DNA of 64,000 bases from Gracilaria domingensis (Eukaryota > Rhodophyta > Florideophyceae > Gracilariales > Gracilariaceae): the NCBI GenBank assembly GCA_022539475.1, contig VCMS01000206.1, positions 1-64,000 of the forward strand, written 5' to 3'. Position numbers and translations under genes: made by a program. This document shows, piece by piece, positions 8,876-42,344 of the stretch. The notes under the pieces were generated by a model. That model ran no database searches. It was not told the DNA's origin and saw only the letters and a program-made list of their open reading frames with translations. The first letter of the stretch is position 1; each line of letters starts with the position of its first letter.

Positions 8876-9039
8876 GTGTCTTGCGTTTTGCGTTATGATC
8901 AGTTAGCAGAGCATTTGCCTGTTAGGTTAGTTAGCATCCTGACGTTTGGCGTTTGGCGTTCAACGGCTTAGACACCCGCCCCCCCCTCCTTAGCGACGCG
9001 TATCACGCGAAGCAGTACCAATTGGTAGGGGCGTACGCC

Positions 9040-12000: not shown

Positions 12001-13540
12001 TCCTCGTTTTTGGACTAGCACTACAGAGCTAGCCCATTCCGAATTTGCCGGTTCTATAACCCCCTCGCGGAGCATCCGCTCCACCTCCTCCAGCTCTACC
12101 TCACGGGCCTTATATCCCGCGCGGTATGGCTGTTGGTGGATGGGACGGGAGTCCGGTTTGAGGTCAATCATATGCTGGGTGGCCTTAATGGCTCCCAGCT
12201 TGCCAGACCACATGGTACTGAACGGCTCCAGAAGTCCGAGGATACGAGCTCTGAGCTCTTCCCCTTCAAGTCCTATATTCACCTCCGTCTTCCAATTGGT
12301 CACTGGGTCGAGCTCCAGTTTCTGGTCTTCTCGCTCAGCTAGTCGCTGCAACATATGGTCTGTTCGCGATGAATTCGACGAGTTGGCACTGCCCCCCTCC
12401 TTCCTTAGCGTCCACGACCTCGTGGGACCATTGTGGTGTGATCGTAAAGATCGTACGGGGAGCCGGTAAGGCAAGACCAATTACGGTGTGCTTTGGCAAC
12501 TTGACCGGGCGGTTGCTGAAGTTACTCAGGTAGACCTGAAACGGTTTCGTCGGTATGTTGTCGACTATAACATTCGCCATTAAGGTCATATGTCGTTCGG
12601 ACAACCGTGAATGGTTCTGAATAGATAACAGGCCTGGTTATTGGCATGTCACCTTCACTACCAAGTGGTTCATAGGCGGTATTGTTACCGCCTTCGCTAG
12701 TCGCACCTTGTTGGAGAGTGCATTTTCTGGTACCGGTTGGTGTCAAGTGCTGTTCTCTTTTGGAGAGGCACCCTTGTGGTTACCAATAATGGCGATCCGG
12801 GGGCCATTATGGAACAGAACTGTCTTAGAGCGTGGGAAAATTGCCCTGACGTGCTGGTCTATAAAGATTGTTCCGAGGATACAGTCTGTTGCCAGTTGGT
12901 TAACGACTATGAAGCGAACTCGGACCTTCATGGTGTCAATCAATACCATTATGGTAAGCGCTTCCATGACGGTTAGTGGTCTGTTGTTGGCGTCAACCAG
13001 TGGGTTAGTTAATGTACATGGCTGAAGCTTGTTAAGTTGTCTGTTAGTTACTAGTTTGGCATTCACCAGATTAGGTCCTGCCCCGGTGTCCAGGACAGTG
13101 ACGCATGGTACCAAGTGGTAAGAAGTAAACCCGAGGGTGACGTTTACCTTATAGTTACTATGATTGAGGAAGCATATGGGTTCGGTGCCATCCATGAGGC
13201 TCTCCTCCCCTGTAACCAATGGGTAATTGTCCATGCTTGCACTACTTGGTTCTGGAATGCCTTCCACATTCGGACAGTTGGGGGAGGCCTTCATCCCAAC
13301 TGTTCGGCGTTTTCCGCCTGCGGGGCGGGATCCGTTTGGTCCTGCTCCGTAATGATGTGTACCTGATAAGGTGTGGCTGCGTTGGGTCGCGCATTTGCGT
13401 GTCCCGTGCCTGCGCTCCGCGCCGTGGGCCCAAATATATCCTGGTGGTTCTGCTGGCGAGCAGTGAGGAGATCGTTCCTGTTCTTTAGAGCCACGCTTGG
13501 GCACGCTGTTGCCAAGTGGTGAGGCGAAAAACAGAACCAA
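9040..13540 (-). CDS. E1 pol: PR, RT, RNase H, integrase, chromodomain (fossil)
   Basis: Ty3/gypsy pol in the expected order. The protease motif is VLDTGAGPNLVNAK, near 13080. The reverse transcriptase (about 12480-10939) has the pattern RFCTDYRKLN, MPFGLLNAPATFQRAL and the catalytic YIDD in LVYIDDVVIYS. RNase H begins at YTLDTDPSDAQIGC. The integrase core (about 10378-9128) has VAVDILGP, LLTDNSSN and HPQTNGQVERFNK. A chromodomain follows (IRYRV and, further on, HIPNNF). It is broken at several points. Integrase then chromodomain is the hallmark of chromoviruses, in which the chromodomain guides integration to particular chromatin. Confidence 0.92.
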
Positions 13541-15557
13541 CAGGGAAGATTACCGGTTGTGGTGTCCTTCCTCGCGAGCGACGACGTGCGCGATGGGGGA
13601 CGACCTCCCGTGGGTACTGCAATCCGTTGCTGCGGGGGTGGTTCTCTATCACCATATTGGTTGAATGGCACCGCTAGAACCGGGCTGACCGGTACGGATA
13701 CATGTGATGGGGGAGCTGAGGTTTGGCTCGAGGGGGGCTCGCTGGATAGCGAGCTGGACCAGGAGGTGTTACCGTGCGATCGAGTTGTCGGTTGTGCATG
13801 CACCAAGTGGACTGGGTGACCCTGGGAGGCATATTGTGTGGATGCCTCATCCGTAGTGGTCTCCTCTTCCTATACGTCAAACACTGACCGCGTGGTTTTT
13901 CCTTTCTCCTTCGATGGTTTGCCAAGTGGTGCGGAGTCTTTCGTGGCCCCTGACCGAACGGTGTCGCCTAGTCCGTGTGCATGGCGGGCTAGTGCGTTGT
14001 AGTCGACCGTGCGGTTGGTAGCTAGGTAGTTGCGAACCTGTGATCGGATAGACTTCGCCACGTTGTCGGAGTACATCGATTTCAACCTTTTGGTAGTAAA
14101 GACGCTTCCACGGCGGGAGGCTAATGCCCATAGGGAGCCAGCGAATTCCAATTCGGTTTGTCCCGCGCGCTGGCGGTACGCAAGCACCTCTGCGTACGCC
14201 TCCTGAATAACCTCATCGGTTGCATAGGTTTCCAGTAGGAAGTTGACCACCTGTGGGTATGTCGTCAACATTTCCGTTTGGTCTTCGTCCACCCCATGGT
14301 GTTCCCTTGGAGGCGGCTATGGAGCAACGCCCAAGCTTCACCAGTTAGGTAGAATTGAAACAATCACATGGCAGCTGCCTCTGAAAACCCATTCTGGTCA
14401 CAAGCGATCTTGAACCTTTGAAGGAAATCAATGATCGCAATAGGGTCATCCCCGCTAAAGCGAGTCTCACCCAGTTGGAAACGAAGCTTCCTATGATGCT
14501 TCGTTATCTTCTGAGCTACCTCTTTGGTATACTCAGCCTGTATGTTCTCCAACCTATAAGAACGATAGTCAACCGCTTTGGTGAATAAATCGTTGAGCGG
14601 TGTAAGCACTTCTAGGTCAGTCTCTTCCTCGGACGTTGAGTCCGAATCATTGTACCTTTCGGTCTTACCCTTGAGGGCATTCTTTCCTTTCTTCTGGCGA
14701 GAGTCCTTTCTCTTGCGTCGTGAACCTACACGGTCGTCGTCTCCTGACGAATCCGAATCGGTGTCTGAGGACGAAGATTCCGAGTCCGACCGGCGACTCT
14801 TTCTCTTTCCCCTTTTGGTTTTCTTCTTCTTACCATTTGGCTTACGTCGACGCTCGTCTCCTGAGCTCGACGAATCTTCATCAGGGTCTCCACCACGTGG
14901 TCCTGACGGAGCTACACCAGTAGGTTGAGGGAGGTATACGTACCTCGGGCCCTCCATGCCCGGAGGCTCTGCCCCTTTCCCCATGCGGTCGATAAATCCT
15001 TCACCAATCGGTTGTGTAGGAAGGGTAGGATGGAGAGTACCAAGTGGTTTCGTGGGATCTACAGCTGGCAAGGGAGCATGCTTCATGAGGGCGGCCTGGG
15101 CTACCATCTCAGGTTGAAGCTTGGCCCCCTGCTTCTGCAGAGCCAGCATAACCAATCGGTCAATGTGTCTTCGTACCTCGTTCTCTAGGTACTGTAACAC
15201 CACCACGGGTACCTTGTCGGGGACCTCCTGGGAGGGTCGATCAACTACCACTCGGGTGACCTCTTCCAGGTCCAGTCGCGGCCCGACTGGCACCTCTATT
15301 TGGTCTACCACTGGGGTTGTTACAGGAGCGGGCTCCTCCGTTGCGGAGCCTGCTCCTCCGTCCACTTGGTCTGCCCGGGGAAGGGTCGAAGGGCCCCCAG
15401 CCTCTCGGTCTACCTTCTTCCCCCTCGGTGGGCGTTCTTTCCGAATCAGGTCCTCCGGGTTATCCAACACCGGATAGGACACTGAACCCCGTACGGGGTG
15501 GTCACTTGGTGGAGCGCTCGGCGCCCTTTTCGAGTGACGCACGCCCCGTTTCTCCAT
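13291..15557 (-). CDS. E1 gag (fossil)
   Basis: The N-terminal part is Pro-rich. A strongly basic then Ser/Asp-rich linker follows (KKKKTKRGKRKSRR, then SDSESSSSDTDSDSS). The capsid-like region has FSGDDPIAIIDFLQRFKIAC and VVNFLLETYATDEVIQEAY, which align well with E2 gag. A CCHC-type zinc knuckle reads CWFCFSPHHLATAC near 13500. The Ser/Asp-rich linker next to a basic block is unusual for a gypsy gag and occurs in E2 as well. The region is broken in a few places. Confidence 0.85.
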
Positions 15558-15665
15558 TTAGGTAACTGGTGCCGGAGCAAATTGCTTCGGCAACGGGAAC
15601 TAAACTACTCAGGTATCTCGTGACTTCCAAATCCTCCTTTCCAAAACCACTTGGTAATCCACAAA

Positions 15666-15683
15666 TTCTAGGTCGGGAGACTA
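15666..15683 (-). other. E1 primer-binding site
   Basis: On the plus strand TTCTAGGTCGGGAGACTA lies 5 bp from the inner end of the 5' LTR. E2 has the same site (TGGTCTCCCGACCTAGAA on its sense strand). Read as a tRNA 3' end this gives T-loop, T-stem CTAGG, acceptor TCGGGAG, discriminator A and CCA. I cannot name the tRNA from the window. Confidence 0.7.
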
Positions 15684-15688
15684 AAATA

Positions 15689-16259
15689 TGCGGTATAACC
15701 GATCGGTGCGAGCTGTTAGTGGGGAGCCCTGCGTGGGCTCGACCCTGCGGAGGAGTGAAACGCGTGACACCTAACAGGTCGGCAGCACCCGCCGTTGCCT
15801 ATAGTGCACGGTGACCAAGTGGTAAATACGCCTGCACTGGTGTGCGGCAGGCACGTATAACCCTCGAGGTCAGCAAAACTATTAGAGGACTACTAGACTT
15901 ACCAATTGCTGACTGTAGAACCGAACTGGTGTCAAATTAGCCTACTTGGTGCTTGCCTTTACCATTTGGTGTGGGAGGTTGGCGTCTCGGGGCTTTAGTA
16001 CACGCGAGCGCCCCTCCGGCTCTCACGGACCTAGTGCCACGTTGGCCACCGGGAGGTGCATTTGTGGTGCACCACCCCGGCCACATATCTACACTACCTA
16101 GTAAATATTAATTCTAAACTAACGAAAATAAACTAATTAGTCCTTGCCATGCCATTGCTTGAGCGTCCCACGTGGTACAGTAGACACACGTGCCCAGAGG
16201 CCCGAAACGTCACCACTTGGTCTTGTAGAGCCTCCGTTGATCCGGCGAGCTATACTACA
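15689..16259 (-). repeat. E1 5' LTR
   Basis: Second copy of the 571-bp LTR, about 96 percent identical to the one at 4961-5531. It carries ACCAAGTGGT at 15814 and ACCACTTGGT at 16212. Confidence 0.93.
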
Positions 16260-18240: not shown

Positions 18241-18802
18241 CTGTAGTAGTGAGTCAGCGTTCTTTTATGGCAGTAAGAAGTGTGCGTCAGAAGCTGTCGG
18301 GAAACGCCGAAGTTCCCACATGACGCCATATAGCACACCGTCGTGGGCTTGTACCGATAGGACATTTACACGTAAGCAGAGGTTGTAGATAGATTGGCAC
18401 CCGCTCTGACCTCTGGAATTTCGCCATGTTGAGCAGGGTGCCGATTCGGACTGTACGCGGTGAGTTGCAGAGTCGAGTGCTACTTATGCACCTCCGCTCC
18501 TCCCGTACACCAACTAGTAAAGGGTAAGCACCACCGCTCTGAACTATCTTTTCGCTAAGTCAGACCTGCGAATAGACCGCGACGGACCACTATTAGGTTT
18601 CCAAGCCGTTCGGACTCAACGCGCGTTTCTCGACCGCGCCTGACGTACCAACGCCCAGTCTTCCCTACGACCGCCCGTTGCTGGCGATCATTTCCACGCG
18701 TCACACTCTACAACCGACCGGATCACGGGACTACACGCCCGCTTACGAACCGTTCACGGATCGCGCCTCTAGGACTCTTTCGTCTGACGGCGCTATCTCA
18801 CA
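18241..18802 (+). repeat. E2 5' LTR
   Basis: Begins CTGTAGTA and ends CTCACA. The start could be one base later. The match to 29737-30318 is clear over the whole length, with several short indels. Confidence 0.9.
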
Positions 18803-18803
18803 T

Positions 18804-18821
18804 TGGTCTCCCGACCTAGAA
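18804..18821 (+). other. E2 primer-binding site
   Basis: TGGTCTCCCGACCTAGAA lies one base after the 5' LTR. Sixteen bases (GTCTCCCGACCTAGAA) are identical to the E1 site, so both lineages use the same tRNA primer. The initial TGG pairs with a tRNA CCA end. Confidence 0.8.
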
Positions 18822-18916
18822 GTGGGATTCATGTTTTCCGTACGGAGTACCAACAGATCTGACGAAGATTCTCGTGATGAATGCACGTGACGCAACTGTG
18901 GAACCGACCGTAAGGG

Positions 18917-20780
18917 TTGATGTCGAAAAAGAATTGGCTCAGTCCGTCGAGCCTCCTCCGCAGACCGCTTCGGATACCGCTTCGGTTGGCCGCCGAAGTG
19001 CCCGTGGCACTGCACCTGCCCCCGAATTTCCGCCTGGAGAACCCCGAGGTACTTTTGCGCAAGTCCTCGAGGCCCTCTAGGGCCAGCGCCGCTTCTTCCG
19101 ACCGGAATAATGAAGCTCCAGTTAGTTTGGACGGATCAGAGTCGCTTCCGCAACTCTCTGTTACAACCGGACAGAACGCTTCGGAACGTACACCGAAGAC
19201 TTTTCCAGAACTGTGGAAGCAGCTTGAGCCTTACTGGCATTACAAGCTGAAGAACGAGATCGAAGCTCGTGTCCCCGTTCGGGTTGAGCGTTATCTTCAT
19301 GAACGCCTTCCGGAGTTGTTGACCGAAGTAATCACCCCGACAGTCCGCCAGACTGCCGAGGCGATTATACAACAGTTGATACCGATCGGATTTGGCGAAG
19401 GTGATCAGGAAGGCCAACCGGCAGTTTACACGGCAACGGCAACGTTGCTACCCCTTTCCAAGTCTTTGCTTGACCGACCGGACTTAGCCGCTGGCTACTT
19501 ACCCGCCGAGCGGAACAATGAGCGGCACCCAGAAGGGGGCCAGCAGAGTGCCCCCATGGCTCCTGTCCTCCCGGCGGTTCCTCATCGAGATGACCCGAAC
19601 GGAGATTCAGACGACTCTTCTGAAGACGAGAGAAAAGGCCGCCGCAAGAAGGGCGGTACAGCTGATGATTCCTCGGGTTCGGATCGACCCCGCGCCAGGA
19701 AGAACCGACGTCGTCGTAGACAGAAACGACGCTCTTCCGATTCGGATACTGATTCTGACCACTCGGATAGTTCTGATGCCGTTTCCAGAACTGACAGTGA
19801 CGAGGACTCGGACCGTTCTGATCGCAAACGCCGCTCCGATTGGCATCGTTCCCGCTCGAAGAAGGCTGCGCCCAGGCGCATCAGACCGCTGAACAAACTG
19901 TTCATCAAGGTGGTGGACTACCGTACGTATCGGTTGGACAACCGCAGTCACCGGTACAATGCGAGGGTTTCGCGCAAGATTGAGCGCTACCAGAAGAAGT
20001 TGAAGGTCCAGATGAAGGGACATTCCTTCTCCGGGGCGGATTCTATATCAGTCCTGAACTTTCTGCAACGGTTCAAGACCGCTTGCAACCACAACAAACT
20101 GTCCGAGGGAGCAGCACTTTGGTGCTTTCAATTCTACCTGACCGGACCGGCTCATGCTTTGATCCAGTCTAGGCTCCTGGGAGAAACGGGCGCCGTTGAT
20201 GTACGTCGGGGTGAGATGCTCCGTACGTACTCGGAGATTGTCAACTTCTTGTTGACTACGTACGCTACGGATGAAGTCATTGCTGACGCCTATGCGGATG
20301 TCACTCTGTACCGCCAGTCCTCTGGGATGTCCGAAACGGAATACTCTCAAAACTGTGGACGAAGGCTCTCCGCTGCGGCAATGTCTTCTCCGATTGGAGA
20401 TTGAAGTCCGTCTTTGTGGAGGGTTACTGCCTTCCATACGGGCGAAGGTGCGTAACCATCTCACGACGCATCCGTCTATTGGATATGATGCGCTCGCGAG
20501 GTAAGCCGAGTCATACGGCGACACGCACCGTTCGGCGAAACGTCAATCCGTTCGGGTTGACACGCCAACGTTGCGTCCGTCTGGAACTAAGGCAGCAGCA
20601 AACCGCTCCACGGAACGGAAGATCCTGAGCTTGCAGAGCACCGAAACGAAATCTTTCGCCACCGACTCGGACGATGGTGAAGCAGTACTTGCATTCGAGC
20701 AAGGTAGCTCCGCTCCGTCGGTGCCGACGACGCCGTCGTCACCTTCAAATTATTCGCGGTCGGACTCTTAACGCACGGCA
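18917..20780 (+). CDS. E2 gag (fossil)
   Basis: The long frame 18917-20404 carries the same parts as E1 gag: LPELLTEVITPTVRQTAEAI, a basic block (RARKNRRRRRQKRR), a Ser/Asp-rich run (SSDSDTDSDHSDSSD), and a capsid-like region with FSGADSISVLNFLQRFKTAC and IVNFLLTTYATDEVIADAY. The nucleocapsid part lies downstream up to about 20780. The downstream part is broken. Gag would form the particle and package the RNA. Confidence 0.85.
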
Positions 20781-21157
20781 ACTGCCATTACGCCCCAAAC
20801 GGCTGCGCAGCCAGCGCAGTCTCAAGGACGCCTGATGGATCGCCCGTGTCGGATTAGCCTTTCCAGGGAACCGGACCATTGCAAGATGATCCCGCCTGGT
20901 GTTCGTGAAGCTCTGCTTGCCGCACGGGAGAAGAACTACCACCTCCGTCGGAAGGAGGGTTACTATAACCGTGACGGCTCCACTCGGATATCTAGTGGTG
21001 TACGTTCGGCCACTCCCGTCCGCGCTGCTCTTGCGGGACGCACTGTTGCTCCCCGACCGGTCATGGTTGTTGGAGAGAACGCTGCAGTGGAGCAGGAAAA
21101 CGGAACGGAGGGCGCGTAGAGGCGCACCGTCCTCCAGGGCCGAAGCACCTCACCGAA

Positions 21158-22164
21158 GTGGACTGTACGGATCCTGCCTCCCATCCGGACGAGCAGTCGC
21201 TTTTACACGCTTTGGATGAGTATGAGTCGGCCACGCCAGTTATGTTGATGCGCAGCGTCCATTATAAAGTGAATTTCTCCGTCGGCTTTTCCCGATCGGT
21301 AATGTATCCACTTACAGGCGTTCTCGACACTGGCGCTGGCCCAAATCTCATTCATGAGCGGCATCTCCCGCCGCACTGGAAGACACTCTTACAACCCGAA
21401 AGGTCAAGAACATTACGGATGCCTCCCGTAATCGGATGGATATTCTGGATGTTGTTCCTCTTCTGGTACGAATTGGAGCTCTGCACGTACGGGTACCGTT
21501 CTTGGTAGCAAGTAAACTTGCGGACAGCTGCATCCTCGGTACCTCGCTTATCGACAGATATGTTTTGGCGATACTACCTCCAAAACGGACTGTCGTGCTA
21601 CGCCACTCACATCCAGTGGCAATTCAATCCGCGTCTGGACGAAGTACAACTCCGCCCGGATATCCTCAGAACCCTACTCCAACTACCGACCGGTCAACGC
21701 CTTCAAACAAAATTCGCGTTGCCCGCCCGGTAATGATACCCCCGATATCGGAATCTCACGTCCTGGTAACCTCCAAGGCCACAGGTCTCATGTTTATTCA
21801 AGGAAATCACCGCACGGCACACAAAAAAGAGCTCACTCTCCTTGCTAATGGTGTAATAGAACTCCGACCGGATATTCCTTTCTATGTTCAGGTGGCTAAC
21901 TTTTCCGACTGTCCGGTACGCCTACATAAAGGACCCATCGTGGGACTTGCCCTTCCATCTCCAATCGCTCTGATATCTCCGCTATTTTCGTCTCGGAGCG
22001 ACGAAACTAAGGAGGGGGCCCCAACTCCCAGTCTTTTTCCGATGCAGACACGGATGACCCAGCCGGACAGAAGCCACCGACGAGCATTGAAGAGGTTTGG
22101 ACCTCAAAGGTACAGTTGTCTTCCGAGTTCCGATCCGAACGGGATAAGGTTATCGAGCTGCTAG
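21158..22164 (+). CDS. E2 protease region (fossil)
   Basis: Aspartic protease motif GVLDTGAGPNLIHERHLPPHW, equivalent to VLDTGAGPNLVNAK of E1. Further on come SKLADSCILGTSLIDRYVLA and the conserved SGxxGLxxI-like region before RT (LANGVIELRPDIPFYVQVANF). This links gag to pol. The region is broken. Confidence 0.8.
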
Positions 22165-22177
22165 ACGGTTCCAAGAT

Positions 22178-25100
22178 ATGTGTGACGGCCACTTAGGCCG
22201 TATCGCTGCCGCGAAGCACCGCATCCAACTGGAACCTGGTACGAAACCTATCTACCAGATGCCATACCGAGTGGGTCCTGCACGTTGCGAACTTGAACGC
22301 AAGGAAGTCAGCAAGCCGCTGGAGATGGGTGTAATTGAGCCCTCATCGGCCGAGTGGGCTAGCCCGGTCGTGTTCGCTCAAAAGAAGGACGGCAGCCTCC
22401 GCTTCTGTGTGGATTACCGCCGTCTTAACGCAGTTACAGTTCGGGACACTTATCCGTTACCGAGAATGGACGAGTTTATCGATTCACTGGGGGACGCGAA
22501 GATATTCTCCACCCTGGATGCCAACAGCGGATATTGGCAGACCGAAGTGGATGAAGCCGACCCGAATAAGACGACGTTTACCTCCCACATGGGACTGCAT
22601 CGGTATACCCGAATGCCGTTCGGGTTGAAGAACGCACCAGCGACTTTCCAGAGAGCGCTGGATATCATACTGTCTCGTGTGAAATGGCAGTACGCGTTGG
22701 TCTATCTCGACGACGTTATCATCTACTCCCGTACGGTCGCTGAACATTACGACCATGTTCGGACTATCTTATCACTCCTCCGATCGGCTGGAATAACTCT
22801 ACGTCTGGATAAGTGCTACTTCTTTAGTGGTACTGTAGATTTCTTGGGCCACGTTATCCGTCCAGGAAATGTACAGGTCTCTACTAAGACTCAAGATGCT
22901 ATCCAAGCGGCTAAACCACCCACCAACCAAACGGAGCTTCGGTCGTTCTTGGGACTCTGCAACGTCTTCCGACGCTTCGTGCAGAACTTTGCCCGAATTG
23001 CGGCTCCTCTGAACCACAAACTCGAGAAAGGCCAACCGGTCAACTTCGAGACACTGAACGATACGGAATATGAAGCATTTGATGAGCTACGTAGCCGGTT
23101 AATACGGCCTCCTATCCTGGCTATTCTACGCCCGGATATGCCGTACGTTCTGGATACCGACGCTTGCGACAAACAAGTCGGATGCGTCTTGTTACAGAAG
23201 CAACCGGACGGTGATCTTCTCCCAATCGGATACTGGAGTCCCTCATTGACGAAAGCCGAACGGGCTTACTCTACAACCGAACGGGAATGCCTCGCTGTAG
23301 TCTGGGCAATACTGCACCTTCGACCGTACCTGGAGATGGGCAGGTTCACCCTCCGAACGGATCACCATGCGCTGAGGTGGATACTCAACCTGGCGGACGC
23401 CTCTGGACGGCTCGCTCGCTGGCGACTCGGTCTGATGAAGTACGACTTCGATATCGTACACCGACCGGGCATAAAACACCGGGCCCCCGATGCGCTATCA
23501 CGCATCCAAACGGACGGAGAGGACCAGACACCCCTTGACGAAGAGGTTACCTGCCTCTTGGTTGAGGACCGAGCAGAAGATGACAAAGACCTCATAGCAG
23601 ACGTCTTAGTTGACGGCGAGGCCTTGAAGGACGTCGCTATTGACTGGTGCGACGAGAACGCACCGATCGGATGCCCCGAGGTTATGGCTATTGTAGAGGA
23701 AGGAACGGAAGTCCAACCGATTACTCTGGAAGAGCTCATTCGAGCTCAGGCTGAGCATGAGTACTGCAAGTCTGTACGGAAAGACGTGGGTAACGGCATT
23801 ACCCTCTTCGACGTTAACCGCCACGGAGTACTCATTCGCCGCTCCCCCCTGGACGGAGCACTACAGAAGGTAGTGCCTCGCTCCCTTGTTCCGCGCGTGC
23901 TCTATCTATCGCACTATCCGCGTTTGGAAGGACACCCGGGCGGAACGCGTTTGTACAACACTCTCCGCAGGGACTTTTACTGGCCACAGATGGCCAATGA
24001 TGTATACCAGACCGTTCGGGATTGCCGCTCGTGCGCTGCTATCCGCGGCACACGACACCGTTTTCAGAAAAGACTGAAGCTCTTTCCCGCAACGGGCCCA
24101 CTCGAGTTCGTGGCTATGTACATTGTCGGTCCTTTTCCGAAGTCCGTGAATGGGGCTGAATACATTTTGGTGATCACCGACCGGTTCACGAAGCTCTGCA
24201 GAACTATCCCGCTACGGTCTACCACTGCTCCAGTTGTGGCCAAAACATTTCTGGAGAACTGGGTCTATCCGTACGGGATCCCTAACTACCTACTCACTGA
24301 TAACGGCCCTCAGTTCGTCGCGAAGTTCTTCGAGGAAGTATACCGCTCGCTGGGTACGAAACACGTCACAACAACGGCATACCATCCGCAGACGAATGGC
24401 CAGGCCGAGCGGTTCAATCGTACGCTACTACAACGCTTGCGACATTACGTTGCGGATCACCAGTCGAACTGGCACGCATACGTACAACCGCTTACGTACG
24501 GATACAATCTACAGGCTCACCGAAGCACGGGCACCACACCATTCGACTTGGCGTTAACCCGTGTTCCGCCGAATGTTGTTCTAAACGAGCCAAGCTCCGC
24601 TACGGATCCTGCTACGCCGACGCAACCTACCCCGGGTCAGATGAAGCGTTACACACTACGCCTTGTAAAGGCTACGCTTCAATCCGCGCGGAACCGTTTC
24701 ACAAACGCGCAACGCAGGTATAAGGAGAACTTCGACAAAGCCGTACGGGTGACTCCACGTTTCACTGAGGGAGAGGAAGTTTTCCTTGACCGTCCTGAGA
24801 CTACTCCGACCGGAGGCGTTCTCGAAGAGCATGAGCGTACGTCGCAGAAGCTGTTGCAAAAGACAACAGGGCCCTACAAGGTTGTCTCCGCTACGAACGA
24901 TACGGTGACAATCGATGTCGCCGGTATACACGATGCCGTCAGCATTGACCGCGTCACCCTGGCTCCCGCTCGGAACCGGTCCCAACCGGTGACAACCGAA
25001 CGAAAGCGCGGCGTACAAGCCGACCCGGAATGCCCTGATGCTGACGAGCCCGTTTCGGACCAGACTAACACTCCCACTGGAGCTTCTGACCCTACAGGAC

Positions 25101-25297
25101 ACCTCTCGGATACTACCGGGATCGTCGACAAAATTCTCGCTCACGGGATTGCTGACGATCCTCCGCACGGAATGGTTTACCGCGTGCGGTGGTATGGATA
25201 CGGTGCTGCAGGTGACTCCTGGGAACCGCCGGAAAACATCCCGCAGCACTTCCTTGCGCGATACTGGAAGCGCGTAAGCCGAACAGAGTCGCCTTAA
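22178..25297 (+). CDS. E2 pol: RT, RNase H, integrase, chromodomain
   Basis: Single open frame of 1039 codons. The RT begins near its start, with SLRFCVDYRRLN, MPFGLKNAPATFQRAL and YLDD in LVYLDDVIIYS (about residue 175). RNase H runs from YVLDTDACDKQVGC and includes FTLRTDHHALRWI. The integrase has an HHCC zinc module (HPGGTRLYNTL, CRSCAAI), LLTDNGPQF and HPQTNGQAERFNR. The chromodomain lies near residues 990-1035 (VYRVRWYGYG, DSWEPPENI). This is the best-preserved pol in the window. It lacks its own gag start and would be made as part of a longer polyprotein. Confidence 0.93.
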   Translation: MCDGHLGRIAAAKHRIQLEPGTKPIYQMPYRVGPARCELERKEVSKPLEMGVIEPSSAEWASPVVFAQKKDGSLRFCVDYRRLNAVTVRDTYPLPRMDEFIDSLGDAKIFSTLDANSGYWQTEVDEADPNKTTFTSHMGLHRYTRMPFGLKNAPATFQRALDIILSRVKWQYALVYLDDVIIYSRTVAEHYDHVRTILSLLRSAGITLRLDKCYFFSGTVDFLGHVIRPGNVQVSTKTQDAIQAAKPPTNQTELRSFLGLCNVFRRFVQNFARIAAPLNHKLEKGQPVNFETLNDTEYEAFDELRSRLIRPPILAILRPDMPYVLDTDACDKQVGCVLLQKQPDGDLLPIGYWSPSLTKAERAYSTTERECLAVVWAILHLRPYLEMGRFTLRTDHHALRWILNLADASGRLARWRLGLMKYDFDIVHRPGIKHRAPDALSRIQTDGEDQTPLDEEVTCLLVEDRAEDDKDLIADVLVDGEALKDVAIDWCDENAPIGCPEVMAIVEEGTEVQPITLEELIRAQAEHEYCKSVRKDVGNGITLFDVNRHGVLIRRSPLDGALQKVVPRSLVPRVLYLSHYPRLEGHPGGTRLYNTLRRDFYWPQMANDVYQTVRDCRSCAAIRGTRHRFQKRLKLFPATGPLEFVAMYIVGPFPKSVNGAEYILVITDRFTKLCRTIPLRSTTAPVVAKTFLENWVYPYGIPNYLLTDNGPQFVAKFFEEVYRSLGTKHVTTTAYHPQTNGQAERFNRTLLQRLRHYVADHQSNWHAYVQPLTYGYNLQAHRSTGTTPFDLALTRVPPNVVLNEPSSATDPATPTQPTPGQMKRYTLRLVKATLQSARNRFTNAQRRYKENFDKAVRVTPRFTEGEEVFLDRPETTPTGGVLEEHERTSQKLLQKTTGPYKVVSATNDTVTIDVAGIHDAVSIDRVTLAPARNRSQPVTTERKRGVQADPECPDADEPVSDQTNTPTGASDPTGHLSDTTGIVDKILAHGIADDPPHGMVYRVRWYGYGAAGDSWEPPENIPQHFLARYWKRVSRTESP

Positions 25298-26561
25298 TGT
25301 AGGAGGGGGAATCACTGCCTTCTCTTTCTTTTGCAGCTCCGAGCGTTAGCGCTCTGGAAGAGAGGGAATCTCGGCTAGCTACTGACATTCTAACATCTAT
25401 CTCACGCAGAGACTAGTCTCGTCCAAGCAACCGTACGGACCTTCTCAATCATTAAGGAACCCGCGCGGAAATTGGGCAGAGTTTCTTCCCGCCCCGGACG
25501 GGGCTAGAACTCCGAACGGTTTGTTATGCCCTCCTAGGCTTGCTAGGAACACCGTGAAGCCGCACCGAGGTTTTCAGATGGCACCGACTTCGAATGGGTG
25601 TTCGGTACTCTCGACAATTCCGCACGGCGCTTACTGAGCTAACTTTGTAAACTACAGAACGGCACGGACGTCAGGAGGAGTGGAGTCAACGCGCGGGTTT
25701 ACTATGTAGTATGTCCTCCGTATGGGAACTGACATAGTCTCCCCCCGCTCTTCCCGGGCTTGACACACCGCACGGCTCCCTAGACGTTTCTTGAACGCCC
25801 CTCCGTAGAGATATGGTCCCGGTGGCAATACCGCACCGCTCTGTGTACTCACACGCCTTGCGTTGAACAAACACCGATCGGCGGGAACTACGCCAAAGTT
25901 CGGGGACACCCCGTCTCTCTAACGCACTAGTAACCGAACTGACTAACTGATCTTGGAATGCCAATTTTGGCGCTCAAGTAACGAACGGAATAGCGGCACA
26001 AGGAGCTGCGCTGGAACCCACGCGTAAACGGAGTACAGCGCTGCGCAATTCGAGCGCACTGCATACTCCCTACGGCGGTATACGGCGAGCGCGCGACACC
26101 GCAGCGCACGGTTACTTGCAAGGCGAATCAAAAAATTGGATGCGGAAATTGCCTGCCCGTACGGGGTGAAAAACGCCGATGCAGTGTTTGGCTCGTATCT
26201 CCGGAACGGCGGCGTTTCAGGGGCTGAAAATGGCCGATTTGCACTCTCCGCACGGTCAAATACTTAGAACGTTTTTGGCTTGCACGCGCACGCCATTACG
26301 TGCAATAATGTATACTGAATCGGCTACTCAACAGCGTGTGGCGCGCATGCACTCCGACCGGGATTAATACCGAAATTTTCGGATTGCGATGCCTGCCGGC
26401 ACGCGCGAGACACCGCACGGACGGCGAGCATGCCCTCCGAGTTGTTGCCAGCGGAGTTGTGTCGACTCGGAGAGCGCTACCGCTTGCCACACCACGCGCC
26501 GTTTCCGGAAGTCCAAGTGCCGCTCGGAGATGCAATCATGGCCACCACAAAAACACCGATC
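25298..26561. other. E2 spacer between the convergent pol and antisense genes
   Basis: About 1.3 kb without a convincing gene. It is rich in CCGnnCGG and cgnACGG words, for example CCGTACGG near 25427 and CCCGTACGGG near 26157, CCGATCGG at 25874 and CCGACCGG at 26354. Short ORFs on both strands here have no recognisable content. Confidence 0.55.
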
Positions 26562-26567
26562 TTTATT
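26562..26567 (-). promoter_or_regulatory. AATAAA polyadenylation signal after the E2 antisense gene
   Basis: TTTATT on the plus strand is AATAAA on the minus strand. It lies about 34 bp beyond the last antisense codon, in the same relative place as the signal of E1. Confidence 0.55.
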
Positions 26568-26600
26568 GAATGACGCCGCATGGGCGCGGTAACAAGTCCG

Positions 26601-29531
26601 CTACGGGATGCGCTTCCCAGGTGTGGGGAACGTCTTTGAGATGCCGAAACGGACACCAGGCGTACCACCGCGACCGCCGCGAGAACCACGACCGCCACGG
26701 GGGCAACGACTACTGCTTGCGCCAGACGCCGCGACCATGGCACGACCTCGCGTCAGTGCTTGCGACGCAGAGCCCGAACCCCGACTGGAACTTCTCGGCT
26801 GGAAAAGGCTGTGCCCCACACGCGCATGCACAAGTCGTCGCCCTCCTCGCGCCTCACTGCTGGCCGGCGTTCCTCTGGATGACGCCGAGGGGCTCTGTCC
26901 GGCCCAAGTTGCGATCCCAGACGTGTGCGTCGGGCCTGCGCACCCGTTCGGCAACGCGGAGCTCCCACATTCCTTCAACTGCCCGGACGGAGTGAGTCTC
27001 GATGGCGGGAAGATGCCACAACCGGGCGGAACCGTATCCGACGGTGTGGGTGTCGTACGCCGAACGAGGTTACCAGCGCGGAAACCGGTCGGATGACTAG
27101 TTGTAGGCACCTGGGATGACGCGGCTGGTACGGTAGTTGACGCGGAAGTCACTGGAACGGGTATACCAACCGAGCTGAAAGCCAGGGGAACTGCGACAGA
27201 CTGTACGGGCGGCGCATAACTACCGCTCGGAACAGCTTGCGAGACCGACGCGTGAGGTGCCAACGGTGCCGAACTCGTAGCAGCGGGTTGATGTAACCTG
27301 GCGGCAGTTATCGCCGCCATCGCGGCCGACGCTTCCATGCCGAGCGGAACATCTGGAGCAATAGAATTCAATGCTGTACGGACGTTGTTGTACTATTCGC
27401 GGCTTCGTTGATGCGCAAGGTTTACCTCCGATGCGGTGTGGTTGTATCTCTGAAGCAACTCTCCCAACTTCAGTCTGTGCGGACCGACCGGAACGTCGTG
27501 AAACACCTGTGTGTAACGACCTATCAGGTCGTGCGCCATACCGGTCATGAAGATTATGACGTCAAGAAAGCCATCGTGGTCGACTTGGACAAATCTTTCC
27601 AACAAGACGAGCCGCGTTATCCACCTCTCGGCACAGTTCAAAGCATCCAACATCGACGTTGGGGCCCCCTCATCCGCATCGCGACAGATCTCTTGCAATC
27701 GCAAGAGAGCAGCATTCTCTTCCGCACCGATCGGATCAGTCTGCACCCCAGCCTCCTTGGAGGTAGCAGAGGGTAGGATCTGGCCCAAACCTTTGGACGG
27801 AACCCTCTCGACATTCTCTTCGACCTCGAGCTTGTTAGGATCCATGAAACCGAGCGGATAAAAATCCTCTACCTCGGAGAAATCCCATAACGGCCGTGCG
27901 GACTCAGGCAGCAGGCGTTGAACGATCGCAGGGGCTCCTGCAGCGTTGACCGGCATCGGGGGAAACTGCCCTTAGTGAGGATTGAACCACAGAAAGCCGG
28001 GCGTATCTGACCAGTCCGTCATGACCGAAAGGAACAGCCATTTCTTGACCGACGGAACCGTAAACTCCGTACCTCTGAGTAGGTTCTGCAGGCCGATCTG
28101 CATCAATACACTAACCAACCCGTACGGAAGAGAAAAGAGCCGACCAAGCCCCGACGGTTCGTGACTTCCTGGCTGACCGGGGAAGCCCCGAAAAAAGTTC
28201 AAACGCGGGTCCTCCGTCTTGGTGAAAACTCTCACCCCTTCCCTCGCGGCCTGTAGAAACGCCATGAGAACGCACACTACCCACTCGTCGTACGCAATCC
28301 TCATAGTCCGCTCGGAAATCGCGCTGTCGCTCAGCACGTCATCTGAGTAATATGCCAGGACTGGTGGAGTGATAACGGAGAGGTTGCGTGGAGCATCCAA
28401 ATCGGCCCAATTCTCCGGTATCTTCACGTAGAAGTTCTTCCGCTCGGATGGCGCAATGTCGAAGAACTCGACGTTATGCCAACCGTACATATATCCGCCC
28501 AAACTCGAACGGATTCTTGCCTCCGTAGCAGCGTTGTCGCCCCAACGACGCCGGTTCAGAAAGTATAACTTATCGTACGGCGGCTGGAGCATTACCATTT
28601 CGAGAGGATTACCGTTCGGATTTGGTTCGTTCTCATCGGAAAGCATACACGTCACCAAGCTCCGCATTCGGCCTTGGTAATCATACTCCTCCAGGCAACG
28701 GAGAAACGGCATATCGCAACTGCCGACGGTGCTTTCTTCGCTCCGACCGGTTATTCCCGGGAGGTGCCTCCACCTCGCCTGCCACGCTTCCATTCTCGTC
28801 CGCTTCGGATTCCGACCGGTTCGCTCCTGAAAGGAACGATGTGCAGGAACCGCGGCAAAACGACGGGCATCAAGATATCCGTTCAGGGCGTCATTTGCAA
28901 GGTAATCTTCTACCGTATACGGTGGCTGCTTTCCCTGGCTCGGTGTCTTCGCCTTATTCCGTGTACGGTTCAGACGGTGGTCGAATTGCTGACCCGGAAG
29001 TGAAACCTGAAATACGGCTGGTAAGTTGGTTCCAGTATGAGGCACTGGCTGAACTGCACCGATCGGGTTAGGCACCATGTTCGTCGGAGTGAACGTTTGC
29101 ATCACCGGAGGCTGCTGGAACTCGTTCGGAGGAGCCTGACCGTAAGTAGGCATCAAAGGCGCTGTCTGCGGATACGCTGGCACGAACATTTGCCCTAACG
29201 TCGCTCCAGAAAGGTTGGGGTTCCCGAACTGCGGAGGAACTGAAGGACCAGGCGGAAGAGGGGCGCTGCGACGCGGGATGGGAACACCGCCCATGTTACC
29301 ACTCGGATGGTAGCCGCTCGGATTCTCCGACGCATTTCGATTCCCGCTCGGTTGATTAGTCATGTTTGCGTCCGCAGGAAGGGATGGGATGGATCTCGCT
29401 TCGGGTTGCGGCGTAGTGTAATCGTCGATCTCGCTCGTGAGGTCGATAAGGACCTGTGCACTCTCCCGCCCGGTCTCGGTCGGCGGTGCTGATTGTGGAT
29501 ATGCGGCTTCACTCCCGGTTGGAGACTTCAT
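26601..29531 (-). CDS. E2 antisense gene, unknown function (fossil)
   Basis: Minus-strand coding region convergent with pol, starting about 200 bp from the 3' LTR. The N-terminal third is Pro/Asn/Gly-rich and probably disordered. A globular middle has HNVEFF (28461-28478), ITPPVLAY and EWVVCVLMAFLQA (near 28250-28290), matching E1 motifs HNVEYW, PTAPVLAC and EWAVMVAILALQA in the same order and spacing. A helical part follows (RWITRLVLLERFVQVDHDGF), then a Pro/Ser/Ala-rich part, and the end has an RGG tail (CPRGGRGSRGGRGG). It is read in consecutive open frames and is broken about twice. No known family recognised, no membrane segment and no enzyme motif. Confidence 0.75.
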
Positions 29532-29724
29532 CTCTCATATGCCGTACAGTGCGAAGCATCGCGCGCGAGGGAGCGGAACTGACAAGGAGGGCGTTACGGT
29601 CGGACAGGCGTACGGCGTACTGGACTACCGATCGAAACCGCAGCCAATGCTCAAGAAAGCCGGATTTAATTTACAACATATGTCGCCAGTCCTCGATTGG
29701 GCGCGCCGTGGACGTCGCGCGCTC

Positions 29725-29735
29725 TAGGAGGAGGG
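29725..29735 (+). other. E2 polypurine tract
   Basis: TAGGAGGAGGG followed by TC and the LTR start TGTAG. It parallels AGGAAGGGGTC/TGTAG of E1. Confidence 0.7.
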
Positions 29736-29736
29736 T

Positions 29737-30318
29737 CTGTAGTATAGTGAGGTCAGCGTTGTTGTATGGGTGATCCGATTCGTGTGGCAGGTAAGAAGGG
29801 GTGCGTCAGAAGCTGTCGGGAAACGCGAAGTGTCCCACATGCGCCGATATGGCACACCGTGCGGACTTGTACGATAGGAAATACACGTAGCATAGTTGTA
29901 GATAGATGGCACCCGCTCGACCTCTGGATATTTTCGCCATGTGAGCAGGGAGCCGATTCGGACTGTAAGCGGTGAGTTGCAGAGTCGAGGTGCTACTTAT
30001 GCACCTCCGCTCCTCCCGTACACCCAACTAGTAAAGGGTAAGCACCACCGCCCTGAACTATCTTTTCGCTAAGTCAGACCTGCGACTAGACCGCGACGGA
30101 CAACTATTAGGTTTCCAAGCCGTTCGGACTCAACGCGCGTTTCTCGACCGCGCCTGACGTACCCAACCGCCCAGTCTTCCTACGACCGCCCGGTGCTGGC
30201 GGTCATTTCCACGCGTCACACTCTACAACCGACCGGATCACGGGACTACACGCCCCGCTTACGAACCGTTCACGGATCGCGCCTCTAGGACTCTTTTGCC
30301 TGACGGCGCTATCTCACA
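29737..30318 (+). repeat. E2 3' LTR
   Basis: Pairs with 18241-18802. It is about 20 bp longer through small insertions near its start. It ends CTCACA, followed by the CACCC duplication and then the copia integrase. Confidence 0.9.
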
Positions 30319-30836
30319 CACCCGAATACCCGTAGATGCGACACATCTGGCTTTTGTCCAGACCATTTTTCATGTGGACTTTGATCGCCTAATATTTTTG
30401 TGGGCATATAATTCCTTAGGCAATTTGCAGTCTGTATTGCCTCGGCCCAAAATTGACGAGAGAGTTTATGATAAAATAACATACATCGAGCCTTTTCACA
30501 GAACGTACGATTTGCTCTTTCCGCAATACCATTCTGTTGTGGTTGATAAGCTCCAGTTGGTTCGTGAATAATTCCTTTGGCCTTGAAATACTTTTCCGTT
30601 GCCTTTGAAATATACTCACCACCTCGATCGCTCCTAATTCTTTTCACAGATGTCCCTGTTTGATTTTCTGCAAGGTTCAGAAATTCCTTGATTTTGTTGC
30701 GCGCTTCGTCCTTTGTCCTTAAAAAATAGACAAATGATTTCCTTGTGTAATCATCTATAAAAGTCATAAAATAATGTTTTCCACTTCTCGATTTCACACT
30801 CATAGGGCCGCAAAGGTCAGTGTGTACCAGCTGCAT
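30319..30836 (-). CDS. Copia-A integrase core (fossil)
   Basis: The frame includes HTDLCGPM, FMTFIDDYTRKSFVYFLR, IRSDRGGEYIS and PQQNGIAERANRT, the D, D and E regions of a copia rve integrase. It ends at the E2 junction within HLRVFGC, which in intact copia elements leads on to the AYVxIP block. Confidence 0.9.
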
Positions 30837-32385: not shown

Positions 32386-32653
32386 TGTTGTGGATACTGA
32401 ACGCTTACGATAAACAAGAAGTGGTTTTAATCACTGAGACCCGGCTTGAATTCTATCTTCCGTCAAACTGGAGTTCTCTTCTACTCTTTTATACTGTTTC
32501 AATAAAGTCCTATAGTGTTCTAGACTTCTATAGAGTTTCTATCATTACGCATTAATTGTTTCTACTTATATGTTCAATAGAATATTCTAGAACTCTCTGG
32601 AAGGTAGCAGTTTCTAGTTGTTATCTAGAAGCTTCCAGATGCTTCTACTACAG
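32386..32653 (-). repeat. Copia-A 5' LTR
   Basis: On the minus strand it starts TGTAGTAGAAG and ends CACAACA. A TATAAAAGAG box lies near its middle (about 32485). It abuts E3 gag at 32654 without spacer. Confidence 0.75.
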
Positions 32654-33504
32654 GCAATGCGATACAGGGTGCCATACTCGCGCTGCGAGACACGAAGCAA
32701 GGAGCCGACGAGTCGGAAACTGTTTATTCCACACGCTTGAACAGGGCTTTTCACCGCTGTGGTAACGTGTACTCTGCGGCAGAGCGATGCACGATGTTTG
32801 TTGATGGCTTGGACCGATCAATTCGGACGTTGGTAGCTTGTTATTGGGAGAAAAAACGCCGGATTACCTATCTGGAACTCGTACAATTTGCCCAAGCTGA
32901 GGGAAATGCAGCTCGCGCACGCGCTGGTGTCAAGACGCGCACGCGCCTCCTCCTTCATGTAGAAGGCCGGGACTCTTCTTTGCCTCTATCACGAGGTTCG
33001 GTCCCAGCCGGTTATGACAACCTACACCTCTTACAGGTTGAAGGTTCAATGCCGACTACGGAGCTCCCGTCGACGACGGAGCCGTCTACTGTTGACGTAG
33101 AACCCGCTCTGTACACCGGTCAACACGTTCCGGCCTTGCACGTGCCACATTTTGGTGGATATCGCAGTCAACGCCGTGGTTGGAGGGATCCCTATCCTCT
33201 AGGACAGGAGCGCCGTCAACCGAGTCCGGATCTTCTCCGGCACCTTATTTGCCACACCTGTTACAGGCATGGACACATCGCTCCGAATTGTTTAATGCCC
33301 ATACGGGATATGGCGAAGATCGTGCCTCAGTATGAGTCGTTGACGCCCGCCGAACGGGAACGTGTCCCCGACAAATCGTACCTTCGTGCGAAGGCGGAGA
33401 CTCAGCCTGGAAGCCAGGAAACGGTACCATCGAACGTTGGAACTGTAGCCGCTCCAGCGGAATCGAAACCTCCGCGGATTGGCGGCGAAGCTCAGAAAAA
33501 CTGA
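32654..33504 (+). CDS. E3 gag, C-terminal part (fossil)
   Basis: Includes VYSTRLNRAFHRCGNVY and CTMFVDGLDRSIRTLVACYW, typical of the end of a retrotransposon gag domain. A zinc knuckle reads CHTCYRHGHIAPNC. Gag ends at 33504, with pol beginning 19 bp later. Confidence 0.82.
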
Positions 33505-33522
33505 GCATGGGAGCCTCCAGCA

Positions 33523-36500
33523 ATGGAGAGGCGCCCCCAGCGACGGGGTCTAACGCGCCTGAGGCTGAGAAGCCTCGCTCCCCGGTCACAATCCTTTCGA
33601 GGAAGATGGCCACTACAGACGTGGACTCTGAGCACCTTGGTGTCTTGCGTCGCCCGTGGATACGGTCTTAAGAACAGCCGGTCCCCGGATAGAGTCCTGG
33701 TCATGGCGAAACGAAACTACAAAGTTTACGCCGACCTAAGGGTTTCCGACCAGTATGTGGTTTGGCAGTTGTCAGTGCTCGATACAGGAGCTGGGCCAAA
33801 CTTTTTGGTAGAGTCTAGGATTCCGCCGCACTTGCGGTCTCGCGTTCGTGCGGCGCCGCATATTGATATCGCGGATGCAAATTATCGGCCACTCTCTACA
33901 GTGGGAGTGATAGACCTGCTCGTCATGCTTGGCCACTACGTGGTGAAGCTCGATTTCTTGGTTTGCAAGCAGCTCGCTGCGCCGGTTATACTCGGATGTG
34001 ACTTCTGTGACCGTTTCGTCGAATCAATTCGACCGCGGCGGAGAACCATCGAAATGGAGGATGGGACCATTGTACCGATCGTTCGGCGTCCCCTTCGACG
34101 GGCTTTGAAGAAGCAAGTGCCCTTGCCTGCTGCGCAGGAGCCTGCCGCCGATGAACGGAAGTCTACGAAGCTCCGAGTTGCTGGGTCTATTTGCATCCCG
34201 CCCGAATCGCAGGTCCGGGTTACTGTAACATCTCCACAATGTGGCTTACAAACGGTGCAACCGTCGCCTGCGTTGCAGGAGAAGCATCAGCTCGCTCTGG
34301 CTAATGGGATTGTTTTCGTCGAACACGAGAATCCTTTTCAGGTGCTGGTGGCGAACTTCAGCCGTTTTCCTCAACGGTTGGTTAGGCGCCAAGTTATTGG
34401 ATCATTGCTCCAGCACCCTGCGGCTATAGTGCCTACTCAGGTTTCTATGGCCGAAGTCCTCGGAATCCTCGAAGCTGAGGAGGGGGAGGCGGAATGGAAT
34501 AATTCCGAACCGAATTCTGGTCCGAACAGTTCGTCGGGAGATGCTACGCCGACTTCGTTGGATGCGAAGGATCACAACCGGTCGAAGAAAGCAATGCCGA
34601 CCTCATCGGACAGTAATGATAAGGACCTTAGTGCTGCTGACACGAAGGATAAGGCAGTACAGGAACTGGAGTCTCTGGATCTTGAACATGTCCCAGAGAC
34701 TCACCGCGATAAATTGCGGCACATGCTCGAAGAGTTCAGGCCCATGTGGGATGGCACAGTGGGTAAGATTGGTATTACCGAACATCGGATTGATTTGCTA
34801 CGGAATACTCGGCCCATTTCACAGCACCCTTACAGGGCAGGACCGACAGCTCGACGAGAGGAGAAAGCTCAAGTTGAGAAAATGCTCCGCGCTGGAGTGA
34901 TCGAGCCGGCTCAGTCACCTTGGGCATCGCCGGTGGTGCTCGCGCCCAAAGCTGATGGGTCTTGGCGATTTTGCATCGATTACCGCAAGCTGAACGCCGC
35001 CATGGTCAAGGATGTATATCCTATCCCACGAATGGATGAATTCATCGATTCGTTGGGCAACGCCAAAGTTTTCACAACCCTAGACGCGAATTGGGGCTGC
35101 TGGCAAGTTCCCGTGAGGGCCGAAGATCGTGACAAGACAGCCTTCGTCTATCATGAAGGATTGTACCGATTCAATCGGATGGCCTTTGGGTTAACGAATG
35201 CGCCAGCCACATTTCAGAGAGTTGTGGATATTTTGTTCGCCCGCTTCAAGTGAAAGACTTGCCTGGTTTACCTGGATGACATCATTGTCTACTCCAGCAA
35301 CCTGGACGAGCACTTGACCCACGTACGGAATGTGATGCGAATCCTACGCGATTCAGGCATTACGCTCAAGCTCAAGAAGTGTGAGTTTTTCACCGAAACC
35401 GTCAGGTATCTCGGCCACGTTATCCCTCCTGGACGGCTGTCGATAGACGAAGTTCGCGTGAAATCCCTCAAAGAGGCTAAGCACCCGCGGACGCATACCG
35501 AACTTTGCGGACATTGCGGCCCCGTTGAATGAGCTCCTGCGCAAAGGACAGCCAGTCAACCTGGAAGAATTAGACGACCGCAAGGCCGCGTCTTTCTCGT
35601 CGCTCGTGGACGCGGTGACATCGCCGCCTATTTTATCCTTACCTAGGGCTGGTTTTCCGTATGCAATAGATACGGATGCGAGCGACTACCAAGTTGGCTG
35701 TGCACTGTTCCAGACCACCGAAGATGGCGAGCGATTGACAATTGGGTACTGGTCAAGAAGCCTCAACGTTCACGAGAGAAATTACTCGGTATCCGAGAAA
35801 GAGTGCTTGGCAGTTATCTGGGCATTACAGACACTGCGGCCCTATCTTATGGGAACTCATCTTCATTGTTCATACCGATCATTCGGCCTTACGCTGGCTA
35901 CTCTCTATAGCAGAGCCATCTGGCCGCTTGATGCGGTGGATACTTCGCTTGTCGGAATTCGACTTTGAAATCCGCTACAAGAAAGGACTCCTGAACAATC
36001 AGGCTGATGCACTGTCCCGCTTGGAAACAGCGGCTGGAGCTACGCCAGTTGATGACCTGGAAATACCGTGCTTCTTCGCGGAAGACGGCTCGAGCGATGC
36101 CGACGAAGACTTGGAAGGATGGGACATCTACGATGCTGTTTTAGCCGTGTCAAACACGCGCCCAGAATCGAACTCTTTCGTACCGACCAAGCCGGAAGAA
36201 CTCATCCGGGAGCAACACACGGACCGTTTTTGTACGGAGATTCCTGTCCGTTTGAACGGCGGAGCACGGCTGCCTTTCGTCGAGAACGACCAATGATTCC
36301 TCATCCGAACTGTTAGGAACAGGCCACAGATTGTGGTTCCGCGCTCACTTCAGTCACGGGTACTGCACTTTTGGCACTATGCGAAGCTCTCAGCCCACCC
36401 TGGTGGCAGGAAGTTGTACTACACCTTGAGGAAGGACTTCTACTGGCAAGCGATGGCTTTCGATGCGTATGCCACTGTTCGTGGATGTTCTGATTGCGCA

Positions 36501-37250: not shown

Positions 37251-37259
37251 TACAATCCC

Positions 37260-38965: not shown

Positions 38966-38983
38966 CTACCCACAACTTGTGAG

Positions 38984-39285: not shown

Positions 39286-39442
39286 AAGTTACCCCCCCCT
39301 CTTGTGGGCCATTCGCAACAGCCTCGAACGAGGTATCGCCCACTGAGAAGGGGGAGAACAAGAAGAAAAATTTGAGCCAAGCCAGCAAGGCTGGAGAAGT
39401 TTACCTTTAACTATTGAGTTTGCCCCTCATCATCGCAGTCTA

Positions 39443-42340: not shown

Positions 42341-42344
42341 CAAG

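Follow-up and report, generated by a model that had tools for sequence, protein, structure and literature searches.

Introduction

Among described systems, the closest to the one examined here is that of the Arabidopsis VANC proteins, which bind dense motifs particular to one family and release their own VANDAL family from silencing (PMC5735166). Here we analyze a 64,000-nucleotide stretch of the red alga Gracilaria domingensis (assembly GCA_022539475.1, contig VCMS01000206.1, positions 1 to 64,000; hereafter, the window), which belongs to a 77.9-Mb genome of 680 contigs and contains a Ty3/gypsy chromodomain retrotransposon, E2, bounded by long terminal repeats (LTRs) and studded over its full length with the dyad CCG-N2-CGG. 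The dyad is enriched, independent of codon usage, two-fold symmetric and specific to the element lineage, and at some sites its half-sites are kept as the spacers change. We consider it reasonably probable that these copies are selected duplex-DNA sites for a lineage-specific dimeric protein, most likely encoded by an antisense gene of the element and put to a VANC-like use.

Each VANDAL family and its relatives carry a dense, short, family-specific motif, as the present elements carry their dyads, and VANC21 and VANC6, two related and fast-changing element-encoded proteins, act on their own family's motif, with specificity arising through motif density (PMC5735166, PMC10398659). VANDALs, however, are DNA transposons, whereas the present elements are Ty3/gypsy elements with LTRs and pol; VANC motifs lie mainly in noncoding tandem repeats and in one orientation, whereas here symmetric dyads run through coding DNA with no tandem repeats; and the VANC and antisense families are unrelated by Pfam, with DNA binding in the present case predicted from sequence. 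Retand, a plant LTR retrotransposon group, shares with our elements a Ty3/gypsy affiliation and an antisense open reading frame (ORF) between pol and the 3′ LTR whose product is a suspected DNA binder, but it is a non-chromovirus with a TRP28 domain and, in many elements, tandem repeats, none of which we found here, and the portions of the article used describe no dispersed dyad (PMC11963269). Sireviruses of plants are also LTR retrotransposons with many palindromic copies of CGG and CCG triplets; they are copia elements, with boxes in the LTRs and upstream of env and in the order CGG-CCG (PMC2829016), whereas the present elements have a gypsy pol, the order CCG-CGG, coverage of the whole element and a proposed element-encoded partner. 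The element-encoded proteins Spm TnpA and MuDR MURA have likewise been linked to methylation loss on their own elements (PMC10398659). Spm and MuDR differ in being DNA transposons. The sites of TnpA and MURA lie near the element ends. Among the literature matches listed, none dealt with dyads of this kind or with antisense genes in the retrotransposons of red algae. By analogy, a logic like that of VANC most likely operates in the present elements, which belong to a different class, would rely on an unrelated protein and have sites written through coding sequence.

CCG-N2-CGG in E2

E2 holds 75 of the window's 94 copies of CCG-N2-CGG, against 10.7 ± 3.2 expected, with a maximum of 21, in 200 simulations of an order-3 Markov model (Poisson P ~2e-37), and against about 3 predicted from the genome-wide rate (19,100 copies in 77.9 Mb). 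A first-pass annotation of the sequence had placed the element at 18241-30318, which is correct to a base, and had listed 15 positions of CCGACCGG or CCGGTCGG and seven of CCGATCGG, every one of which we located again; its expectation of about 0.4 for CCGACCGG is reproduced by a mononucleotide model of one strand. Outside E2 the window has one more CCGACCGG (14786) and one more CCGATCGG (15699). The parts of the element are as follows, with site counts compared, where given, to the mean of synonymous-codon shuffles.

18242-30318, plus strand: E2, Ty3/gypsy chromodomain LTR retrotransposon, 75 CCG-N2-CGG (LTR alignment, pol domains, site count)
18242-18802, plus strand: 5′ LTR, 561 bases, 2 sites (LTR alignment)
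18917-20404, plus strand: ORF in gag position, 495 amino acids, 6 sites against 1.5
22178-25297, plus strand: pol, 1039 amino acids, with reverse transcriptase (RT), RNase H, integrase and chromodomain (Pfam), 19 sites against 4.1
26601-27371, minus strand: probable C-terminal part of the antisense gene, with a glycine-arginine-rich end (by-eye comparison with the ends of its relatives P0007 and L028), 6 sites against 1.2
27393-27956, minus strand: middle part of the antisense gene, an ORF of its own in this copy (profile match, E=3.8e-16), 4 sites against 0.9
27972-29531, minus strand: N-terminal part and conserved core of the antisense gene (P0001, 519 amino acids), 10 sites against 2.25
29738-30318, plus strand: 3′ LTR, 581 bases, 4 sites (LTR alignment)

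The pol domains stand in gypsy order (RT, RNase H, integrase), with a chromodomain (PF00385, residues 982-1032, E=1.2e-6) at the integrase C-terminus, and the ORF in gag position has no Pfam match. The antisense gene occupies the opposite strand between pol and the 3′ LTR and is split into several ORFs in this copy. No tandem repeats were found within E2.

Shuffling synonymous codons (n=500) preserves the protein and the codon usage of each ORF, and the observed number of sites exceeded the shuffle maximum in all six E2 ORFs: 19 against a mean of 4.1 and a maximum of 10 in pol, and 6 against 1.5, 6 against 0.75, 10 against 2.25, 4 against 0.9 and 6 against 1.2 in the others. Both LTRs, the gag ORF, pol, the post-pol region and the antisense gene all contain sites. 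Of the ten compartments compared, only a segment of 269 bases around the 3′ LTR start lacks them; the density in the other nine is 3.8-8.8 per kb. The reading frames of the sites are mixed in pol (7, 8 and 4), and all six sites of the ORF at 26601-27371 share one frame.

The enrichment is confined to a particular arrangement of half-sites. For CCG-g-CGG, where g is the number of bases between the half-sites, the counts for g from 0 to 8 are 2, 9, 75, 27, 11, 8, 5, 12 and 8; no gap stands out for CGG-g-CCG, and the highest count for CCG-g-CCG is 21, at gap 1. The spacer of CCG-N2-CGG uses 14 of the 16 dinucleotides, and the site class is mirror-symmetric, with no letter seen at least 10 times differing from its mirror at p<0.02. 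The dyad peak, free spacer and mirror symmetry together point to a two-fold symmetric binder of duplex DNA. Base composition and codon bias are excluded as the cause of the density by the Markov and synonymous-codon nulls, both of which are exceeded, and by the gap profile.

We also noticed, post hoc, that CCGACCGG is oriented within E2, with 14 copies on the plus strand and one on the minus strand (18714-30229), although the class as a whole is symmetric.

Dyads of other lineages

A second element of the window carries a different dyad.

4961-15988 at least (the LTRs extend past the aligned ends), minus strand: E1, related LTR element, ACC-4-GGT 56, ACC-5-GGT 38
5981-8783, plus strand: E1 antisense gene, divided in this copy into three overlapping ORFs

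E1 has the layout of E2, on the minus strand, and the two antisense proteins are homologous (31% over 161 amino acids, E=4e-21). Its ACC-4-GGT and ACC-5-GGT counts compare with 7.2 and 7.7 expected, respectively; under synonymous shuffles three of seven ORFs lie beyond the maximum for each spacing, and the remaining ORFs, with small counts, lie above the mean. The motif originally proposed for E1, ACCA-nn-TGGT, is present (19 copies) but forms a subset of ACC-N4-GGT, and ACC-N4/5-GGT describes the element best. Inverted half-sites around a nearly free spacer are indeed common to both elements, as the first-pass annotation had it; its view of the E2 motif as simply that of E1 with one inner letter swapped is not supported in that form. 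Half-site (CCG, ACC) and spacing (2; 3/4; 4/5; 6/7) both vary across lineages.

Loci were taken as 2.7-4.6 kb of DNA around 60 antisense matches in the genome (L009-L068), with six more stretches (L069-L074), and 64 loci plus the two window elements were scored in a lineage matrix against an order-2 Markov model. All 10 loci of lineages A and B (L009-L018) are enriched in CCG-2-CGG (z 7.0-12.9); the set includes the window's own copy (L010), one that closely matches it (L009) and two fragments of a single copy (L013 and L014). The 30 E1-type loci, among them many near-copies and the window's own copy (L039), all show an excess of ACC-4-GGT and of ACC-5-GGT (z 3.6-10.4). L069 and L072 are enriched in CCG-3-CGG and CCG-4-CGG (z 4.8-7.8) and have no CCG-2-CGG. 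Two loci obtained later were in line with their lineages: L074, from the group of L069 and L072, has 26 CCG-4-CGG against 3.4, and L073, a 1.06-kb E1-like stretch whose RT is 71% identical to that of E1, has 6 ACC-4-GGT against 1.0.

CGTACG ranks first among palindromes in 18 of the 20 loci of lineage C (L019-L038). GTAC itself occurs 42-53 times against 16-19 in the four loci scored with an order-1 null, and its z under synonymous shuffles is 2.3-4.7 in eight of eight C loci and at most 1.6 in 17 others; it is also in excess elsewhere (e.g. 37 against 21.7 at 31-40 kb of the window). In L070 and L071, CC-g-GG is most frequent with three bases between the half-sites, where it counts 36 and 53 while no other gap exceeds 28, but this peak does not rise above synonymous shuffles (z 0.4 and 1.3). 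GTAC and CC-3-GG are the weakest-supported of the lineage dyads.

Compared with a reversed control, the genome as a whole contains 19,100 CCG-2-CGG against 16,877, 21,944 ACC-4-GGT against 18,689 and 33,756 CCG-7-CGG against 21,264; CCG-1-CGG, favoured by none of these lineages, stands at 20,035 against 19,425.

CC-3-GG is scarce in E2 (39 against 62.5 in the order-3 Markov model, z -3.0) and tends to be low in A, B and C loci. Lineage D2 favours this word. Its scarcity possibly reflects avoidance of a rival's site, or else composition.

Motif type, phylogeny and site turnover

On a tree of 23 antisense proteins, 21 of them labelled, the five motif classes need four changes, the minimum, and none of 200 label shuffles did as well, a result helped by near-copies. 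Support is starred for four motif classes; for the CCG-2 class it is 93/99, and this class forms one group in 89% of bootstrap trees. The lineage matrix, the synonymous shuffles and this tree thus bear out the early suggestion that motif type is linked to element lineage. Identity to E2 falls in the same order for RT and for the antisense protein among elements paired by eye, by contig and distance: 93-100% and 95-100% in lineage A, 91% and 56-57% in B, 77-81% and 48-52% in C (one 71% and 47%), and 59-64% and 36-39% in D. No recombinant elements were found among these pairs. The dyad follows the lineage, and since RT and antisense histories coincide, no single gene is singled out. The antisense cores of A and B are only 56-57% identical while their RT is 91% identical, and such fast divergence alongside a conserved RT is as expected of a protein with shifting specificity.

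Comparison of E2 with lineage B offers a view of how sites change. Covered CCG-2-CGG sites of E2 are shared with L015, L016, L017 and L018 in 8/21, 5/24, 7/17 and 3/21 cases, respectively, against 5/49, 1/59, 10/49 and 7/46 for other palindromes of the 3-2-3 form, so that in three comparisons of the four E2 sites are shared more than other palindromes. The comparisons with L015 and L016 involve the same sites and do not count as independent. Within the antisense ORF alone, 3/6, 4/10, 5/9 and 0/7 sites are shared, and in 8 of the 12 shared sites the spacer is altered with all six half-site bases kept. As many sites are one-sided between E2 and B, sites are gained and lost with density remaining high.

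E3, a third element of the window

32500-41300 (region, ends not set), plus strand: E3, third gypsy element, RT 33523-35253, integrase 36333-37250
39750-41138, minus strand: one of the antisense ORFs of E3, encoding the antisense protein P0009, 462 amino acids, probable remote family member

P0009 matches the antisense family in hhalign (probability 94, E=1.5e-7) and has 92 scored matches in the genome, many of them 91-93% identical, with open frames near 610 amino acids. E3 is enriched in CCG-6-CGG (24 against 5.0) and CCG-7-CGG (24 against 4.6; z 6.9-7.3), and synonymous shuffles of six non-overlapping ORFs give 18 against 6.1 and 14 against 4.6 at gaps 6 and 7, and a few further gaps show lesser excesses. 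The genome-wide margin of CCG-7-CGG over its reversed control, given above, also speaks for E3, as does the number of P0009 matches. A peak at gaps 6-7 is likewise seen in L005-L007, three loci that overlap or adjoin one another around CCGNNCGG matches on another contig, and the RT of L007 is 53% identical to that of E3; no antisense relative was found in the stretches examined there. CCG-6/7-CGG has weaker support as the dyad of E3.

The antisense protein family

P0001 has at least 83 scored matches in this genome and P0002 at least 87, fragments and near-copies included. Outside it, protein searches of a database of 5.8 billion proteins returned only two relatives, P0007 and P0008, of which P0007, from the red alga Gracilariopsis chorda, is 60% identical to the E2 antisense protein; a search with the E1-type protein returned none, one with the family alignment P0007 only, and no relative was confirmed in viral contigs. 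Relatives with long open frames (P0007, P0008, L016, L028, L054 and L070) span 769-936 amino acids, with an arginine-glycine-rich tail in four of the six. The family has no match in Pfam or NCBIfam. Among Pfam matches of nine antisense proteins up to E=1, only DUF883 appears, in one member (0.29), and neither the VANC domains DUF1985 and DUF287 nor TRP28 (PF04195) is present; the best hit of a PDB sequence search (E=0.022) falls outside the conserved core.

Interpretation and alternatives

Under the reading we favour, selection would maintain the dyads over the full length of the element as binding sites in duplex DNA, and a two-fold symmetric, sequence-specific protein encoded antisense between pol and the 3′ LTR would bind them. 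Protein version and dyad, the latter defined by half-site and spacing, would both be private to a lineage, such that the protein coats elements of that lineage and hardly any others. The coating would then most likely lift or prevent host silencing, as in VANC-like self-recognition; self-repression and chromatin packing are alternative outcomes. The antisense protein is most likely the binder, most likely acts as a dimer and most likely has anti-silencing as its outcome. Sites occur once per 117-183 bases in E1, E2 and E3, a spacing that would suit coating of the element by density and not action at a single promoter. With slightly less assurance, we lean towards seeing in these dyads a self-addressing code, in which private dyads are written by base substitution, coding DNA included, and half-site and spacing form an evolvable barcode for kin and rivals, each read by its own antisense-encoded dimer.

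Such a system would mean that sequence-specific self-recognition of transposable elements arose independently in LTR retrotransposons of red algae, under selection strong enough to shape codon choice across a 12-kb element. One genome would then offer a natural series of putative DNA-binding proteins with their sites, a system for the study of specificity divergence, and how related elements avoid each other's control would become directly testable.

Several results weigh against this reading. The antisense proteins have no recognisable DNA-binding domain, and two structure models built from 4-row alignments are unreliable (predicted local distance difference test, pLDDT, 35 and 44). GTAC in lineage C is only moderate under the order-2 null (z 0.8-2.2), and the same loci show a mild excess of CCG-2-CGG and CCG-3-CGG (z 0.4-5.1). 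In L018, E2 sites are no more shared than other palindromes (3/21 against 7/46). For E3, P0009 is weak by hmmsearch (E=0.35), and under the null used for E3, CCC-6-GGG and CGC-4-GCG attain z 6.3 and 5.5, respectively, in the region 41300-52800, where no antisense relative turned up. Finally, RT, gag and the antisense gene share their history, so that another element gene could encode the binder.

That last possibility, in which gag, integrase or a chromodomain part binds the sites, for example to pack or aim the DNA, and the antisense gene is incidental, draws on the single lineage history of the element genes seen when RT and antisense proteins are compared. We regard it as unlikely: a strong CCG-2-CGG signal is missing from C even though RT identity is still about 80% between A and C (91% between A and B), and the antisense protein diverges much faster than RT. 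Gag, moreover, is normally RNA-binding, and a strand-symmetric dyad points to duplex DNA. A host transcription factor, insulator or silencing protein, recruited or tolerated by the elements, would be expected to have one favoured site, in regulatory regions, whereas sister lineages in a single genome differ in their dyads, each of which extends over the full element and into coding DNA; genome-wide, CCG-2-CGG is only slightly above the reversed control (19,100 against 16,877). The many palindromic CGG-CCG boxes of Sirevirus LTRs, proposed as host-factor sites (PMC2829016), provide a precedent, but we find this explanation quite improbable here.

An action of the words at the RNA level, through hairpins or dimer contacts that serve packaging or export, is very improbable. 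ACC-4/5-GGT and CCG-3/4-CGG could form small hairpins, and CCGACCGG lies 14:1 on the sense strand, but the loop would have two bases in CCG-2-CGG and none in GTAC, the E2 class lacks orientation, and spacing is sharply fixed. Composition, codon bias or shared descent alone, with no function, can scarcely account for the data: the elements are GC-richer than adjoining DNA, copies of a lineage share ancestry, and palindromes of the GC-rich region 41300-52800 reach z 6.3 under the order-2 null, but E2 beats both Markov and synonymous-codon nulls, the same half-sites at neighbouring gaps are not enriched, E2 has no tandem repeat, and between A and B there are sites found on one side only, while density remains high.

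Other features of the window

Immediately past the 3′ LTR of E2, at 30309-30836 on the minus strand, lie an integrase fragment and a retroviral SH3-like stretch that apparently belong to another element. An LTR-like element at 52865-58093 has 84-base repeats that are 98% alike, together with a weak Tudor-like match and a zinc-knuckle ORF. It shows no strong dyad (highest z 3.1), and searches for an antisense relative found none there, a combination that favours the proposed tie between dyad and antisense gene. The window further contains a repeat pair at 41341-45204, whose copies are 85% alike and lie about 3.5 kb from each other, with transposase ORFs of the DDE_1 type at 44168-44887 and 47089-48603, and a WD40-repeat-rich ORF of 920 amino acids at 61189-63951 on the minus strand.

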